The position numbers and the translations under genes were made by a program. Under the pieces are notes generated by a model. That model was not told where the DNA came from and made no database searches. It worked only from the letters and a program-made list of their open reading frames with translations. 64,000 bases of DNA from NCBI GenBank assembly GCA_030531215.1, contig JAUNNY010000003.1, positions 1 to 64,000 on the forward strand. Reading direction: 5' to 3'. The DNA comes from Erysipelotrichaceae bacterium (GTDB lineage: Bacteria > Bacillota_I > Bacilli_A > Erysipelotrichales > Erysipelotrichaceae). Each line of letters starts with the position of its first letter. Within the stretch, counting starts at the first letter, position 1. Positions 51,054 through 60,510 of this stretch are shown piece after piece.

Positions 51054-51059
51054 TTAGAC

Positions 51060-51290
51060 AAGGCTAAGAAAAGAAGAGTAACTTATATTAAGCCTATAGA
51101 GAGTTCCTGGTTGGTGGAAAGGAATGGTAGAAGATAAGTGAACATGGTCTTGGAGCTTCTAGTTCGATATTAGAGCTAGACGTAACGCACACGTTATAGT
51201 GCTAGGATATGTTTGTATCTAAACAAGGTGTAGAAATACACGAATTAAGGTGGTAACACGTTGAATCGTCCTTATGGGCGATTTTTTGTT
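51060..51290 (+). promoter_or_regulatory. T-box leader, methionine-specific
   Basis: Stem I has the S-turn side AGTA, the ACTTAT/ATAAGT helix and a specifier loop GAACATGG, whose codon ATG (51144-51146) reads methionine. The distal GGTTGGTGGAAA loop is present. The T-box bulge sequence AAGGTGGTAACACG (51247-51260) precedes a terminator with stem AATCGTCC (51264-51271) / GGGCGATT (51276-51283), TTAT loop and T run. Uncharged tRNA-Met should prevent termination and turn on metQ-metN-metI. Confidence 0.92.
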
Positions 51291-53832: not shown

Positions 53833-53838
53833 AGTTTT

Positions 53839-53958
53839 GTCCATAAAGAGAGGCGGAGAGACAAGCTCTTTGAAACCTCAGCAACCTTCTTATGAAAGGT
53901 GCTAATGCTTGTACGATGGGTTATAACATCAATTACCCATCATTTGATGGGTTTTTAT
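53839..53958 (+). promoter_or_regulatory. SAM-I (S-box) riboswitch with terminator
   Basis: S-box core AAAGAGAGGCGGAGAGAC, GAAACCTCAGCAACC and GAAAGGTGCTAATGC are all present. P1 pairs GTCCAT (53839-53844) with ATGGGT (53916-53921). GATGGGT (53915-53921) can instead pair with ACCCATC (53935-53941), the 5' arm of the terminator (ACCCATC / GATGGGT 53946-53952, then T run). SAM binding would free the terminator and switch the operon off when SAM is plentiful. Confidence 0.93.
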
Positions 53959-53984
53959 TTTTATTGGACAAGAAAGAGGGAAAC

Positions 53985-54563
53985 ATGCAAAAAGAAAGTA
54001 TCGGGAAAATTTTATTAGGAAAGTGGGATACAAAGACTATCGTTGGTGTAGCTATTGGTGTAGCATTATTTGCTGTATTAATGGACTATGCATCAATTAA
54101 AGTATTCACAAACACTAACTTAACATTAGCTATGATCGTTCCAGTAATCGTTGGTGGTTTATTTGGACCTTTACCAGCTGCACTTGCTTGTGGTTTAGGA
54201 AATGTCTTAGCTGACTTAATTGGTGGCTGGGGTATGTGGTTTAACTGGTCAATCGGTAACGCTGTTTTAGGCTTCATCGTTGGTTGTTTAAAACTATATG
54301 GTGCTGATATTGAAAATGGTAAATTCGATGTTAAACAAATGATTATCTATGCTATTTTAGCTATTATAGGTAACGCTCTAGCATTTGGTGTTATTACACC
54401 TATCTGTTCTGCAATCCTATATCAATCAGAACTAGAAATCACCTTCTTACAAAGCTTATTTGGTGGTGCATCTAACGTATTAGTTCTAGTAGTTGTAGGC
54501 ATTCCAATTCTTAAAGCTTTAGCTGCAAGAAACGCAAAAGCATCTAATTTAACAAAGGAATAA
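53985..54563 (+). CDS. ECF transporter S component, SAM-riboswitch controlled
   Basis: 192 aa from ATG 53985 (RBS AGAGGG); the longer frame from 53892 runs through the riboswitch and is rejected. Six hydrophobic segments with ECF-S features, including AMIVPVIVGGLFGPLPAALACGLGNVLADLIGGWG. The A and T components follow directly, so this is a dedicated (group I) ECF importer. The ligand is not readable from the sequence. SAM-riboswitch control and two SAM-cleaving enzymes in the same operon point to SAM, a SAM derivative or a methionine precursor. Confidence 0.82.
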   Translation: MQKESIGKILLGKWDTKTIVGVAIGVALFAVLMDYASIKVFTNTNLTLAMIVPVIVGGLFGPLPAALACGLGNVLADLIGGWGMWFNWSIGNAVLGFIVGCLKLYGADIENGKFDVKQMIIYAILAIIGNALAFGVITPICSAILYQSELEITFLQSLFGGASNVLVLVVVGIPILKALAARNAKASNLTKE

Positions 54564-54564
54564 G

Positions 54565-56280
54565 ATGGACAAAATTCCAGTTATCGAATTAAAGGATTTC
54601 GGCTTTAGATATCGTTCTCAAACTGAAAAAACTTTAAAAAATATTAATCTCACGATATATGAAGGAGAAAAAGTTCTTTTATTAGGACCTTCTGGTTGTG
54701 GTAAATCAACTTTAGCAAACTGTATAAATGGTTTGATTCCTTTCTCATATCCTGGTGAAATAACTGGTTCATGTAAAGTTGCTGGAGTAGAAACATCTAC
54801 TTCCAGCATCTTTAAGTTGAGTGCTTCTGTAGGAACAGTACTTCAAGATTCAGATGCCCAATTTGTTGGACTTTCTGTTGGAGAAGATATTGCATATGCA
54901 TTAGAAAATGAAAACATGCCAAGAAGCGAAATGCTACCAAAAGTAGAAAATGTCGCTAATCTTGTGCATATGCAAGATTTTCTAGGGGTTGTTCCATATA
55001 AACTATCTGGTGGTCAAAAACAAAGAGTATCTTTAGCAGGTATTATGCATGATGATGTAAAGATACTTCTTTTTGATGAACCTTTAGCTGCACTAGATCC
55101 AAAGATGGGCAATCAAGCTATTGAACTAATCGATGAAATTCAAAAGAAGTCAAACAAAACAGTTGTTATTATTGAACATCGTCTTGAAGATGTTCTTCAT
55201 CGTAATGTAGATCGTATTATCTTGATGTCGGAAGGTCAAATCGTAGAAGATACAACTCCAGATAAACTATTATGTTCAAAACTATTAGTTGAAAAAGGCA
55301 TTAGAGAGCCTCTATATTTATCTGCTATAAGAATGGCGGGATGCGAGATACACGAAGAAGATAAACCGTCTGATGTATATTCAATGAATTTAGAACCATA
55401 CAAAGATAAAGTTGTAAAGTTCTTTAATGAAGTTGAACCTACAATAACAGAAAACAACGAAGATGTAATTATAGATGTTAATAATGTCACATTTAATTAT
55501 GGCGGCACACAAAACAACTCTTTAAACGATGTTTCATTTAAGATTCGTAAAAAAGAGAAGGTTGCTTTAATTGGCGAAAATGGCGCAGGCAAATCAACAT
55601 TAGCTAAATTAATATGCGGAATCGTTAGACCTAATAAAGGTAGCGTTGTGATTAATGGTACTAATTATTCATCAATGACTATTAAAGAAATAAATACTAT
55701 TATCGGTTATGTGATGCAGAACCCTAATCAGATGTTAGTAAAAGATATCATTAAAGACGAAGTATCTTTAGGCTTTACGTTAAACAATATTCCTGAAGAA
55801 GAAGCTAATCCGCATGTTGAAGAAATATTAAAGATGACTGATTTGTGGCCTATGCGTAATTGGCCTGTTGGTGTATTGAGTTATGGTCAAAAGAAACGTG
55901 TTACTATTGCTTCTATATTGGCTATGAAACCAGAAGTCATTATTCTTGATGAGCCAACAGCTGGACAAGACTATCGTATCTATACAGAAATAATGACTTT
56001 CTTAAATGAATTAAATAAAAACTATGGTATCACTATCATCTTCATTACTCACGATATGCATCTAGCAATCGAATATACTGATAGAGCTATTGTTTTAGCA
56101 AACAGCAGATGCATTGGTGATGATTCCGTGTATAAGATTTTATCTAATAACGATATCATTGAACAGGCAAGTTTAAAACAAACATCACTATACATCTTGG
56201 CAAATAGATTAGGAATTGATCCAGAGAAATTTATCGATTCATTCATCCAAGCCGAAAGGAAGACTAGACATGAATCATAG
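54565..56280 (+). CDS. ECF transporter ATPase, A-A' fusion
   Basis: 571 aa with two complete ATPase units. N-terminal: Walker A LLGPSGCGKSTLANC, signature LSGGQKQRVSLAG, Walker B ILLFDEPLAALDP. C-terminal (from ~residue 300): Walker A LIGENGAGKSTLAK, signature LSYGQKKRVTIAS (tyrosine in place of the first glycine), Walker B VIILDEPTAGQD, and a His switch in ITHDMH. It powers the S-T core. One base after the S gene; the T gene starts within it. Confidence 0.93.
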   Translation: MDKIPVIELKDFGFRYRSQTEKTLKNINLTIYEGEKVLLLGPSGCGKSTLANCINGLIPFSYPGEITGSCKVAGVETSTSSIFKLSASVGTVLQDSDAQFVGLSVGEDIAYALENENMPRSEMLPKVENVANLVHMQDFLGVVPYKLSGGQKQRVSLAGIMHDDVKILLFDEPLAALDPKMGNQAIELIDEIQKKSNKTVVIIEHRLEDVLHRNVDRIILMSEGQIVEDTTPDKLLCSKLLVEKGIREPLYLSAIRMAGCEIHEEDKPSDVYSMNLEPYKDKVVKFFNEVEPTITENNEDVIIDVNNVTFNYGGTQNNSLNDVSFKIRKKEKVALIGENGAGKSTLAKLICGIVRPNKGSVVINGTNYSSMTIKEINTIIGYVMQNPNQMLVKDIIKDEVSLGFTLNNIPEEEANPHVEEILKMTDLWPMRNWPVGVLSYGQKKRVTIASILAMKPEVIILDEPTAGQDYRIYTEIMTFLNELNKNYGITIIFITHDMHLAIEYTDRAIVLANSRCIGDDSVYKILSNNDIIEQASLKQTSLYILANRLGIDPEKFIDSFIQAERKTRHES

Positions 56281-57118
56281 CGCTATTATCAATCTGGTTC
56301 CTGGAAATACCTTCCTTCATAAATTAACAGGTACAACGAAAGTACGTCTTTTCATCGTATTAATAATCTATGTTACGATGTCTTTTGATTTGCCTATCAT
56401 TCTTCCATTGTTTATAGCCTCTATAGTTGCATTAATTTCATTAAAACCAAAATGGAAGACAATTAGAACAATTATGATAATTGTTGTGTTAATGAATTTA
56501 TTTAATATTTTCTTATATTGGGTTGCTGACCCAAATTGTGGTCAAATATACAATAATGATGCGACAGTATTAGTTAAGTTAACAAATTATTTTGTGATTA
56601 CTAAAGGTACGTTGTGGTATCTAGGCGTCAGATTATTAAAGATGCTTACATCATTCTTAATTTCTTTAGTATTTATTATGTCTATTACACCAAGCGAAAT
56701 GGCAGCTGGTTTAACTTCGTTAGGTTTACCATATAAGTTTGGTTGTATCGTGGAGATTGCGTTTAGATATATTCCTGATATTTCTAGAGACTTTGAAAAT
56801 ATATCTATTTCTATGCAGTGTCGTGGTCTAGAATTAGACAAGAAAAAAACTAGTCCATTTAAACGTATGAAACAAATGATATTAATATTGATACCTCTAG
56901 TCATTACATCATTTGATAGAGTAGGTAATATAGCTAATGCGATGGACTTAAGAGGTTTTGGTAAATTAAACAAACGTACATATTATGCTGAACATGAACC
57001 TAGCAAATGGGATAAAGTATTTATGGTTATATATATTTTATTATTCATATTTGATATTGCATATCTAATCAATAATGGATTAGGTACTAGATCAACCAGA
57101 ATGTGGATCTATTGGTAA
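56270..57118 (+). CDS. ECF transporter T component
   Basis: 282 aa from ATG 56270, with AAAGGA upstream; an earlier TTG at 56216 lies deep in the ATPase gene. About five to six membrane segments and the T-component signatures: HKLTGTTKVRLFIVL near the start, then FRYIPDISRDFENISISMQCRGLE and AMDLRGFGKLNKRTY, which hold the two A-R-G-type coupling motifs for the ATPases. Completes the ECF importer. Confidence 0.92.
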   Translation: MNHSAIINLVPGNTFLHKLTGTTKVRLFIVLIIYVTMSFDLPIILPLFIASIVALISLKPKWKTIRTIMIIVVLMNLFNIFLYWVADPNCGQIYNNDATVLVKLTNYFVITKGTLWYLGVRLLKMLTSFLISLVFIMSITPSEMAAGLTSLGLPYKFGCIVEIAFRYIPDISRDFENISISMQCRGLELDKKKTSPFKRMKQMILILIPLVITSFDRVGNIANAMDLRGFGKLNKRTYYAEHEPSKWDKVFMVIYILLFIFDIAYLINNGLGTRSTRMWIYW

Positions 57119-57119
57119 G

Positions 57120-58457
57120 ATGGACTACAAACAATTATTCATAAACAATTTAGATATTATAAAAGATTTATTGGCAATTAAATCTATTTATGATGAAAAT
57201 AGCGTATCAGAAACTGCCCCATATGGTAAGTCAGTTAAAGATGCGCTTTTATTTATGAAAGAATTAGCTATCAAAGATGGTTTTATAGTTAAAGAATATG
57301 ATAATAAAGTACTAACTATTTCTTATGTAACTAACGAAGATAAACATATCGATATTGCCTCACACTTAGATGTTGTATCAGTTGATGATAAATGGAATAA
57401 TGATCCATTTGAACCAACTATCATCGACAACAAGATATATGGCCGAGGTACCAGTGATATGAAGATACCACTAATGTTGACATATATTGCCTTGAAACAA
57501 TTAAGAGATAAATATCCTAATCCAAATAAAGAACTTAGACTCGTCTTAGGAACAGACGAAGAACGCACTATGGAAGATATGCATTATTACTATAATCATG
57601 TATCTAAGCCATTATTTGCGTTTACTCCTGATGGAAGTTTTCCTATGGGTATAGGTGAACTTGGTGCCTTAATGTGGACGATAGACGAAAGCTATTGTGG
57701 CATTATCGATAAACTTGAGGGTGGCATCCAATGTAATGTTGTAGCACCAAATTGTTATATTAGATTAACTAATAATCTATATACTAATAAAATAAAAGAT
57801 TATATCTTTAATAATAAAATAGACGCAAAAGTTTATGAACAAGAAAATAAGACTATTATTGAAACTAACGGTAAAGCTGTTCATTCATCACTATGTTATC
57901 TTGGTGATAATGCCATCATAAAAGCCCTAAAGATTATTAAAGATAATGTTGATGATAAATATGTAGAGAACCTTTATCATTTATTCTCTAATTGTTATGG
58001 CGATAATTTTGATTGTAAAGTGGCTGGTGAATATAATACCTTCTTTACGGTAAATCTTGGCAGATTAACAATCTCAGAAAACAAAATAACAGCCCAAATA
58101 GATGGTAGATATCCAAACACTATAACTAGCGAAGAACTCATAAAGAGAATTAATAATAAATCTTTATTTAATATTAATTTAGTTTATGATGACAAGCCAA
58201 CACTATGCAACAAAGATGATAAATATGTACAATGTTTATTAGGAACATATCGTAATATAACAAATGATTATTCAGATCCTTTAGTATCGGGATCGGTAAC
58301 CTATTCTAAAGTATTTAAACATTGTGTGAGTTTTGGCCCTAATAAATTAGGTAAACCACATCTAGCGCATCAAGTTAATGAATATATGGAAATAGATGAT
58401 TGTGTTGAAGCTTTGGAAATATACTATAAAGCGATGGAAAGATTATTAGAGGAATGA
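57120..58457 (+). CDS. M20 family dipeptidase (PepV/Sapep type)
   Basis: 445 aa. The metal-binding order is clear: ASHLDVVSVDDKW, GRGTSDMKIPLMLTYIALKQL, LGTDEERTMEDM, FTPDGSFPMGIGELG and a final GPNKLGKPHLAHQVNEY histidine. These match PepV/Sapep Mn- or Zn-dependent dipeptidases. In this SAM-controlled operon it may release methionine from peptides or act on an imported conjugate (inference). The stop overlaps the next gene. Confidence 0.9.
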   Translation: MDYKQLFINNLDIIKDLLAIKSIYDENSVSETAPYGKSVKDALLFMKELAIKDGFIVKEYDNKVLTISYVTNEDKHIDIASHLDVVSVDDKWNNDPFEPTIIDNKIYGRGTSDMKIPLMLTYIALKQLRDKYPNPNKELRLVLGTDEERTMEDMHYYYNHVSKPLFAFTPDGSFPMGIGELGALMWTIDESYCGIIDKLEGGIQCNVVAPNCYIRLTNNLYTNKIKDYIFNNKIDAKVYEQENKTIIETNGKAVHSSLCYLGDNAIIKALKIIKDNVDDKYVENLYHLFSNCYGDNFDCKVAGEYNTFFTVNLGRLTISENKITAQIDGRYPNTITSEELIKRINNKSLFNINLVYDDKPTLCNKDDKYVQCLLGTYRNITNDYSDPLVSGSVTYSKVFKHCVSFGPNKLGKPHLAHQVNEYMEIDDCVEALEIYYKAMERLLEE

Positions 58458-58459
58458 AA

Positions 58460-59302
58460 ATGAAAAAGATGTTAGTATTCCAAACAGACTTTACATATAA
58501 AGAAGGAGCGGTTGCTTCAATGTATGGTGTGGTCAAAAGTGTTGATGAAGATATTGAAATAATCAGCGCAACTCACGAGATACCTCAATACGATACTTAT
58601 TCTGCTTCTTATCGACTATATCAATATATCGATTTCTGGCCTAAAGGAACTATCTTTGTTTCTGTAGTTGATCCAGGAGTTGGTACAAGTAGAAAAGCAT
58701 GTGTTGCCAAGACTAAAAATGGATATTATATTGTTACTCCAGACAATGGAACTTTAACTCATGTTGATAAATATTTTGGTATTGAAGAAATTAGACAGAT
58801 AGATGAGACAGTTAATAGGCTACATCGACAAGACAACACTTATGTATCAGTTTTCCATGGTCGTGATTTATTTGGCTATTGTGCTGCAAAACTTGCTTCG
58901 GGGATAATAAGTTATGAAGAAGTAGGCCCTAAATATGATGTTAAGGAAATTGTTAAACATCCTATTATTGAAGCTAAAGATGATGAGAAGACTATTGAAG
59001 GATATTTTGAGATAAAGGACCCTAATTTCGGTAATTTATGGACAAATGTACCTCTAGATATGTTTGGGAAGTATTTTAAGTTCGGAGATGTTGTAAAAAC
59101 GAGAATATATTATCAAAATAGGTTAAAATATGAGTGGGATTTACCATACTATGATTCGTTCTCTAAAGCTGAAGACCATACAGTTATGATCTACAACAAC
59201 GAAATAAATAAGATGGCAATCGCAGAAGTGGTAGGAAATTTAGAAAAGGATTATGGTCTAGATTTCGGTTCAGATTATAAGGTGGTGTTTATACATGAAT
59301 AA
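58460..59302 (+). CDS. SAM hydroxide adenosyltransferase (DUF62), copy 1
   Basis: 280 aa from ATG 58460, which is 7 nt behind AGAGG; ATG 58454 lies too close to it. The family cleaves S-adenosylmethionine to methionine and adenosine using water. It keeps the N-terminal QTDFTYKEGAV aspartate and the known catalytic trio, here D71 and R78 in VVDPGVGTSR and H133 in FHGRD, plus TPDNGTLTHV. Encoded just after the dipeptidase and followed by a second copy (8-nt overlap). Confidence 0.92.
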   Translation: MKKMLVFQTDFTYKEGAVASMYGVVKSVDEDIEIISATHEIPQYDTYSASYRLYQYIDFWPKGTIFVSVVDPGVGTSRKACVAKTKNGYYIVTPDNGTLTHVDKYFGIEEIRQIDETVNRLHRQDNTYVSVFHGRDLFGYCAAKLASGIISYEEVGPKYDVKEIVKHPIIEAKDDEKTIEGYFEIKDPNFGNLWTNVPLDMFGKYFKFGDVVKTRIYYQNRLKYEWDLPYYDSFSKAEDHTVMIYNNEINKMAIAEVVGNLEKDYGLDFGSDYKVVFIHE

Positions 59303-60140
59303 TTTCTTAGTATTTCAGTCAGATTTTGGTTTAGCCGATGGTGCTGTAAGCGCCATGGAAGGTGTATCGTTTGGTGTCAGCAAGGATTTAAATGTTAGAC
59401 ATTTAACTCATGAAATTGGTAGATACAATATCTTTGATGCTTCATATCGTTTGTTTCAAACTATTAAGTATTGGCCAGAAGGCACTGTCTTTGTTTCAGT
59501 AGTAGATCCTGGTGTTGGTTCAAATAGATTATCTATAGTGGCCAAAACTGTAACAGGCCAATATGTTGTAACTCCAGATAACGGAACATTGACTCATGTT
59601 GCAGAATTTGTAGGACTAGAAGAAGTAAGGCAAATAGATGAAACAATCAATAGACTAAAAGATTCAAATGCTTCATATACATTCCATGGACGTGATGTCT
59701 ATGCATATACAGGAGCTAGATTAGCTTCAAATACCATCACTTATGAACAAGTTGGTCCGGTAATAGACAAAGATAGTATCAAACGACTACGCTTATTTAA
59801 AACAATTTTTGAAGATGAATCTGTAACTGGTCAAATAGATATTCTTGATGTAAGATATGGTTCGCTATGGACATCAATTACAATTGATGAATTCAAGAAG
59901 TTAAATATTGATTATGGTGAATTAGCTAACATTCATATTCAATGTGGCGAAAAAGAATCTTGTGATTTAAATATCGTATATGGACGTTCATTCGCAGATG
60001 TATCGATCGGTTCACCAATTCTATATATGAATTCTGTGAATCATATGGCTGTCGCAATTAACCAAGGAAGCTTTGCGGAAGCGCACAAGATTGGCGTGGG
60101 GAATCCATGGACCATCACAATAAAAAGGTTGACTAAATAA
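59295..60140 (+). CDS. SAM hydroxide adenosyltransferase (DUF62), copy 2
   Basis: 281 aa and a tandem paralogue of the preceding gene. QSDFGLADGAV, D71-x6-R78 in VVDPGVGSNR, TPDNGTLTHV and H131 in TFHGRD are intact, so it should be active. Two active-looking copies could form a heteromer, as family members are trimers, or differ in substrate. RBS AAGGTGG lies in the end of copy 1. Its 3' end contains the -35 of the tmRNA promoter. Confidence 0.92.
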   Translation: MNNFLVFQSDFGLADGAVSAMEGVSFGVSKDLNVRHLTHEIGRYNIFDASYRLFQTIKYWPEGTVFVSVVDPGVGSNRLSIVAKTVTGQYVVTPDNGTLTHVAEFVGLEEVRQIDETINRLKDSNASYTFHGRDVYAYTGARLASNTITYEQVGPVIDKDSIKRLRLFKTIFEDESVTGQIDILDVRYGSLWTSITIDEFKKLNIDYGELANIHIQCGEKESCDLNIVYGRSFADVSIGSPILYMNSVNHMAVAINQGSFAEAHKIGVGNPWTITIKRLTK

Positions 60141-60165: not shown

Positions 60166-60510
60166 TGGGGTTGACATTGGTTTCGACAGGTCTAGCCTGA
60201 TTTAAATTGCAGTGGAGTGATGACCTAATCATCAAACTAAATTAAACGCAAACAGACAAGTTGCATTTGCCTAGTATAACCTAAAGACTGGTTTGGCAGC
60301 TTCTAACTGTAAAGATCATAGCAGTTAGTCGTAAACATGATCTAGGTGAAGTGAGTTCCGCTTTATCTCACCATCCGAAAACCGAATAAGCAAATTCAAT
60401 GTTGAGGTAGTTTAAGCCATAACATTGTCTTAACAAAGTTAAACTAAACTGTAGACATTTAAATGTGAGACTATTCTTGGACGAGAGTTCGAATCTCTCC
60501 AGCTCCACCA
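60166..60510 (+). ncRNA. ssrA: Transfer-messenger RNA (tmRNA)
   Basis: 345 nt. The 5' end GGGGTTGACATTGGTTTCGACAGG and the 3' end GGACGAGAGTTCGAATCTCTCCAGCTCCACCA give the tRNA-like half: GGGGTTG pairs with CAGCTCC before ACCA, and GAGAGTTCGAATCTC is the T arm. The CCA is encoded. The tag frame from the resume codon GCA at 60248 reads ANRQVAFA and stops at TAG 60272-60274. Rescues stalled ribosomes and tags the product for proteolysis. Confidence 0.95.

Follow-up and report, generated by a model that had tools for sequence, protein, structure and literature searches.

A SAM-riboswitch operon pairing an ECF importer with two predicted SAM hydrolases in an Erysipelotrichaceae bacterium, and its possible role in SAM scavenging

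An operon on the forward strand of a 64,000-nucleotide stretch of DNA from an Erysipelotrichaceae bacterium (assembly GCA_030531215.1, contig JAUNNY010000003.1, positions 1 to 64,000; hereafter the window) joins an S-adenosylmethionine (SAM) riboswitch and an energy-coupling factor (ECF) importer to two tandem members of the DUF62 family of SAM hydrolases. The pairing of this importer's S component with DUF62 recurs across many genomes, repeatedly under RNA elements associated with methionine or SAM. On balance it is probable that the operon constitutes a SAM-scavenging pathway, in which the ECF system would import SAM and DUF62 would free methionine and adenosine from it. The genes are nearly contiguous and follow the riboswitch in the order S, fused A-A', T, M20 dipeptidase, DUF62a and DUF62b:

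53838..53922 (+), SAM-I (S-box) aptamer; RF00162, 59.1 bits against a gathering score of 44.4, E 3.8e-11
53915..53965 (+), expression platform; antiterminator 53915-53921/53935-53941, terminator 53935-53952 plus U run
53985..54563 (+), ECF S component of the NF010182/PF07155 family; PF07155 2e-34, NF010182 above cut-off
54565..56280 (+), ECF ATPase with A and A' fused; TIGR04520 above cut-off, two ATP-binding cassette (ABC) domains
56270..57118 (+), ECF T component; PF02361 7e-22
57120..58457 (+), M20 Sapep-type dipeptidase, accessory; TIGR01887 above cut-off
58460..59302 (+), DUF62a, SAM hydrolase family; PF01887/PF20257, D71 R78 H133 aligned with PH0463
59295..60140 (+), DUF62b, SAM hydrolase family; PF01887/PF20257, D71 R78 H131 aligned with PH0463

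The RF00162 match and the PF and TIGR profile matches bear out an earlier sequence-only reading, which had described an S-box operon with a complete ECF transporter (S, A-A', T), a dipeptidase and two DUF62 genes. S, A, A' and T are encoded together, as in group I ECF transporters. The nearest relative found is L003, Candidatus Colivicinus equi, also of the Erysipelotrichaceae, with protein identities of 97% for S, 88% for A-A', 85% for T, 82% for the dipeptidase, 92% for DUF62a and 78% for DUF62b.

The aptamer, the sole S-box found in the 1.16 Mb genome (G000, a fragmented assembly of 42 contigs that is 69% complete), scores above its gathering threshold, and the expression platform is coupled to its P1 helix. 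In computed folding, the terminator hairpin at 53935-53952 with its U run has an energy of -10.7 kcal/mol (z -3.1), and the 3' strand of P1 (53915-53921) pairs with 53935-53941 as an antiterminator at -10.0 kcal/mol (z -3.0); the two pairings are mutually exclusive. As predicted from this folding, an aptamer with two alternative hairpins is the layout of a SAM-OFF switch.

The neighbourhoods of the S component and DUF62 were surveyed, as the sequence-only reading had suggested, in 246 Lactobacillales genomes and in a 245-genome sample of the phylum, and the pairing recurs in both. Among the Lactobacillales, DUF62 is present in 84 genomes and the S family in 80, with 66 carrying both (odds ratio 39, Fisher p 4e-29, not corrected for phylogeny); S adjoins DUF62 in all 66 of these, and in 63 the two are no more than 1.5 kb apart. 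The phylum sample contains DUF62 in 13 genomes, S above the cut-off in 14 and both in 10, in one cluster each time (Fisher p 1.5e-12, not corrected for shared ancestry). Cluster orders include DUF62-S-A-T, S-A-T-DUF62-DUF62 and, in genomes G088 and G243, DUF62 flanking both sides; hence the link between S and DUF62 has survived rearrangement. The neighbours of the clusters also differ between genomes, two S subtypes that are about 30% identical to each other are both linked with DUF62, and a cluster is present in the gammaproteobacterium Psittacicella. Together, these differences in order, neighbours and subtype, and the occurrence in Psittacicella, argue against the mere inheritance of one cluster.

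The control of these loci points to methionine and SAM. An S-box precedes S in the window, L003 and L009, and T-boxes with an AUG specifier stand ahead of S operons in G234, G339 and G292. Such a T-box leads a DUF62-S-A-T operon in Desemzia sp. and metA-metY-DUF62-S-A-A'-T in Desemzia incerta. The SAM synthetase gene, metK, immediately precedes S in G273, and in G349 it follows DUF62b. Each partner is also found alone under methionine T-boxes, and therefore each can work without the other: DUF62 stands directly behind an AUG T-box, the specifier being read by pattern, at 11 Lactobacillales loci in genomes, perhaps Enterococcus-like, without this S family (L166-L168, L170, L174, L176-L178, L184, L185 and L191), and three Lactobacillales S clusters lie behind AUG T-boxes in genomes without DUF62. 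In one of these three (L205:6053-10263), the methionine T-box is followed by S, A-A', T and, last, a homocysteine S-methyltransferase, a family whose members can use (R,S)-SAM (PMC6302742). The SamT/Sam4 enzymes of this kind also yield methionine from (R,S)-SAM, by methyl transfer to homocysteine and not by hydrolysis (PMC6302742); in L205 the gene takes the place of DUF62. An Rfam search for leader RNAs at E<=1 upstream of the operons in eight other genomes returned the G234 T-box only, and no CmhR boxes with at most 2 mismatches were found upstream of S or DUF62. SAM fits all of these loci best, because both DUF62 and the homocysteine S-methyltransferase may act on it and S-methylmethionine is not a plausible substrate for DUF62, the chemistry of which needs an adenosyl sulfonium. 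Two parts of the SAM-scavenging proposal made from the sequence have thus gained ground: importer and DUF62 recur together as a unit, and the S-boxes, the AUG T-boxes and L205 place that unit in methionine and SAM supply. The imported substrate, the direction of flow and the epimer preferences are parts that we infer.

Under the SAM-scavenging reading, a fall in intracellular SAM would allow the S-box to permit transcription of the operon. The S component would capture external SAM, as the (S,S) form, the spontaneously formed (R,S) epimer or both, and the A-A'-T module would drive the bound SAM into the cell, where DUF62a and DUF62b would split it by hydrolysis into L-methionine and adenosine. 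In genomes that have it, MetK would rebuild (S,S)-SAM, while the adenosine would enter purine salvage. Part of the extracellular SAM would be the (R,S) epimer, which most enzymes cannot use but DUF62 would convert to methionine; the SAM that is imported probably includes this epimer. The cleavage of SAM during SAM shortage had been regarded, from the sequence, as wasteful, a paradox now weakened by the finding that StDUF62, the characterised member, has a preference for (R,S)-SAM (PMC12120602), so that SAM cleavage could spare the usable (S,S)-SAM pool. The authors of that 2025 study doubt that the physiological role of DUF62 lies in hydrolysing (R,S)-SAM (PMC12120602).

Both DUF62 proteins of the window contain the two domains of the family (PF01887 and PF20257), and alignment with PH0463 confirms the earlier statement that the catalytic Asp-Arg-His residues are intact in each. 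They score below the NCBIfam equivalog cut-offs, and assignment as a fluorinase or chlorinase fails, with TIGR04507 scores of 61-76 bits against 400 and the D-R-H triad present. In a tree of 126 DUF62 copies, DUF62a and DUF62b fall into two clades (split support 100/100) that are retained together in many Erysipelotrichaceae operons. As judged from this tree the split is ancient, and it suggests a division of labour between the copies, possibly by epimer. The proteins thus share domains, D-R-H residues and a length of about 280 aa with the (R)-S-adenosyl-L-methionine hydrolases StDUF62 and PH0463, and differ from them in being two ancient paralogues, predicted to be hydrolases, in an operon with an ECF importer and a SAM riboswitch. 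Elsewhere, in two Coriobacteriia (L024:5373-8828 and L025:7016-8864), DUF62 follows polar-amino-acid ABC importer genes and has Ala in place of the catalytic His, and in Pedobacter cryoconitis (L016:7929-11560) the stop of DUF62 and the start of a gene for a TonB-dependent receptor overlap.

For the S component, 53985 is the likelier start, because the longer open reading frame (ORF) beginning at 53892 runs into the aptamer. An AlphaFold (AF2) model, with a mean predicted local distance difference test (pLDDT) value of 90.8, has the standard six-helix fold of S components and is matched by Foldseek to FolT, RibU, BioY, ThiT and PanT; identity to the best fold matches, FolT, RibU, BioY and ThiT, is 12-19%. 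Across an alignment of 37 S proteins D77 is invariant and W88 and W85 are invariant or nearly so, a pattern compatible with a positively charged ligand, for instance a sulfonium, although this is only suggestive. The system resembles group I ECF transporters with a dedicated A-A'-T (UPF0397-type S) in its S fold and in having S, fused A-A' and T in one operon; the difference is that here an S named for riboflavin lies under SAM and methionine RNAs and is tied to DUF62. Rodionov and colleagues reportedly predicted MtsTUV, an ECF system for a methionine precursor, in Lactobacillales, and are said neither to have named SAM as its substrate nor to have linked it to DUF62. MtsTUV probably has the same S family and methionine T-box control. 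The pneumococcal locus at spd-0431 presumably encodes the same S family too. That locus (spd-0431 and following), which includes an ABC ATPase, was induced without methionine in an array study (PMC5359408).

The main rival, possible though rather doubtful, is that the compound brought in by the ECF system is a different member of the methionine family (methionine, S-methylmethionine or a precursor) and that DUF62 repairs internal (R,S)-SAM, recovering methionine, in which case the two would be joined solely as members of the methionine regulon. However, the adjacency of S and DUF62 in 66/66 genomes is closer than common regulation would require, a MetQNI-type methionine ABC importer already lies just upstream of the operon under a T-box with an AUG specifier (51057-51276), and S-methylmethionine is ill suited to DUF62. 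The explanation would accommodate both the preference of StDUF62 for (R,S)-SAM (PMC12120602) and the existence, under methionine T-boxes, of S clusters without DUF62 and of solo DUF62. Import and cleavage of some other adenosyl or sulfonium compound, such as S-adenosylhomocysteine (SAH), methylthioadenosine (MTA) or an adenosylated natural product, is decidedly unlikely. The DUF62 relatives fluorinase and chlorinase do accept several nucleophiles (PMC10491745), and some DUF62 copies lack the catalytic His; however, D-R-H is kept in both copies of the window, the neighbours examined revealed no MTA/SAH nucleosidase, and control by the S-box and methionine T-boxes points to methionine. That S is a riboflavin transporter, only incidentally linked to DUF62, is scarcely credible despite the database name of NF010182 ('ECF-type riboflavin transporter substrate-binding protein'). 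No flavin mononucleotide (FMN) riboswitch or riboflavin-gene link was found for S, which instead repeatedly lies under an S-box or methionine T-box; in relatives G127 and G146 the FMN riboswitch is placed away from S, and in L060 it directly precedes another ORF, of 206 aa.

Several observations nevertheless weigh against SAM scavenging. No solved structure related by sequence to S was found and the fold matches are less than 20% identical, so that the binding pocket leaves the ligand unnamed. The Lactobacillales DUF62-S operons inspected, Desemzia aside, have no known leader RNA, and 13 further S-positive Lactobacillales without DUF62 lack an L205-type homocysteine S-methyltransferase within about 6 kb. 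The catalytic His is lost in 14 of 126 DUF62 copies, for example L040_1, L136_0, L141_0 and L142_2 (a b copy, His to Asp). Finally, all 246 Lactobacillales retain metK, hence none of them depends on imported SAM, and in the window's own family metK loss set against DUF62 is about 5/31 versus 3/59, which with these approximate denominators is not significant (p 0.12). In two-copy operons the loss of His is seen in one DUF62 copy and never in both; such pairs possibly form mixed trimers or catalyse a changed reaction.

The nearest system in logic is the queuosine salvage pathway QrtT-QueK-QueL of C. difficile (PMC11477304), in which a riboswitch and an ECF importer are likewise combined with enzymes that hydrolyse an imported modified nucleoside and release its useful part. 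The S family, the enzymes and the ligand (preQ1/queuosine) differ from those of the present operon. All components of the operon belong to known families. A scavenging unit of ECF importer and SAM hydrolase was not found in the literature searched, which covers few subscription papers, and searches for DUF62 with ECF, MtsT or MtsTUV returned nothing. The link between S and DUF62 under methionine and SAM control offers a testable answer to both the role of DUF62 and the substrate of S: the importer-hydrolase pairing in a gut bacterium and many others would provide a use for a family whose role is unsettled, and the system is a candidate ECF-type bacterial SAM importer whose scavenging route would give methionine back to the cell. 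Should this prove true, SAM would be one of the cofactors that cells in guts and fermentations share.

The distribution of metK bears on a stronger variant, in which some gut-lineage members have lost metK and live on SAM taken up by the ECF system, their DUF62 paralogues sharing the work by epimer, so as to clear (R,S)-SAM, which is of no use, and set methionine free. This would be an unlikely course. Searches for a SAM synthetase, whether canonical, compact or of the archaeal type, were negative in the DUF62-carrying genomes G000, G332, G152, G127, G302, G339 and G293, the first six of which carry ECF-DUF62; they were negative too in G271, G285 and G300, which are without DUF62. G127 is estimated to be 100% complete, compared with 69% for G000. 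The absence of metK is a lead only, because the enrichment is not significant and assembly gaps are possible. General replacement of metK by ECF-DUF62 was rejected, given the retention of metK in 246/246 Lactobacillales and the non-significant enrichment in the family.

Low-scoring metK matches in G088, G303, G305 and G315 are intact MetK-like proteins of 260-267 aa. In the four following, only PF00438 is recognised, and the motifs HPDK, GDNG, GATNRK and GGGLHGKD are mostly kept:

L154:1931-2734 (+), MetK-like protein of 260-267 aa
L155:1197-1979 (-), MetK-like protein of 260-267 aa
L156:880-1662 (-), MetK-like protein of 260-267 aa
L157:810-1601 (-), MetK-like protein of 260-267 aa

The genomes of L154-L157 are without canonical metK, and five other genomes carry the short protein beside it; it is perhaps a minimal SAM synthetase. 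A compact MetK of about 340 aa was also seen, with all three domains and scores near or below the TIGR01034 cut-off:

L158:1281-2303, compact MetK
L159:1084-2106, compact MetK
L160:1216-2235, compact MetK
L161:1037-2059, compact MetK

Weak metK matches in G248 and G249 were considered as pseudogenes and rejected as such, their ORFs being intact 340-aa proteins.

The dipeptidase passed only the subfamily model TIGR01887 and failed as a PepV equivalog (307 bits against 435). It is present in the closest relatives of the window and a few others and absent from most ECF-DUF62 clusters, and is therefore accessory and not part of the core; the step proposed from the sequence, in which it supplies methionine from peptides, is not conserved. 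Directly downstream of the operon lies a transfer-messenger RNA (tmRNA) gene (60167-60510), and a tmRNA also follows a DUF62 gene in L003, L004, L008 and L027.

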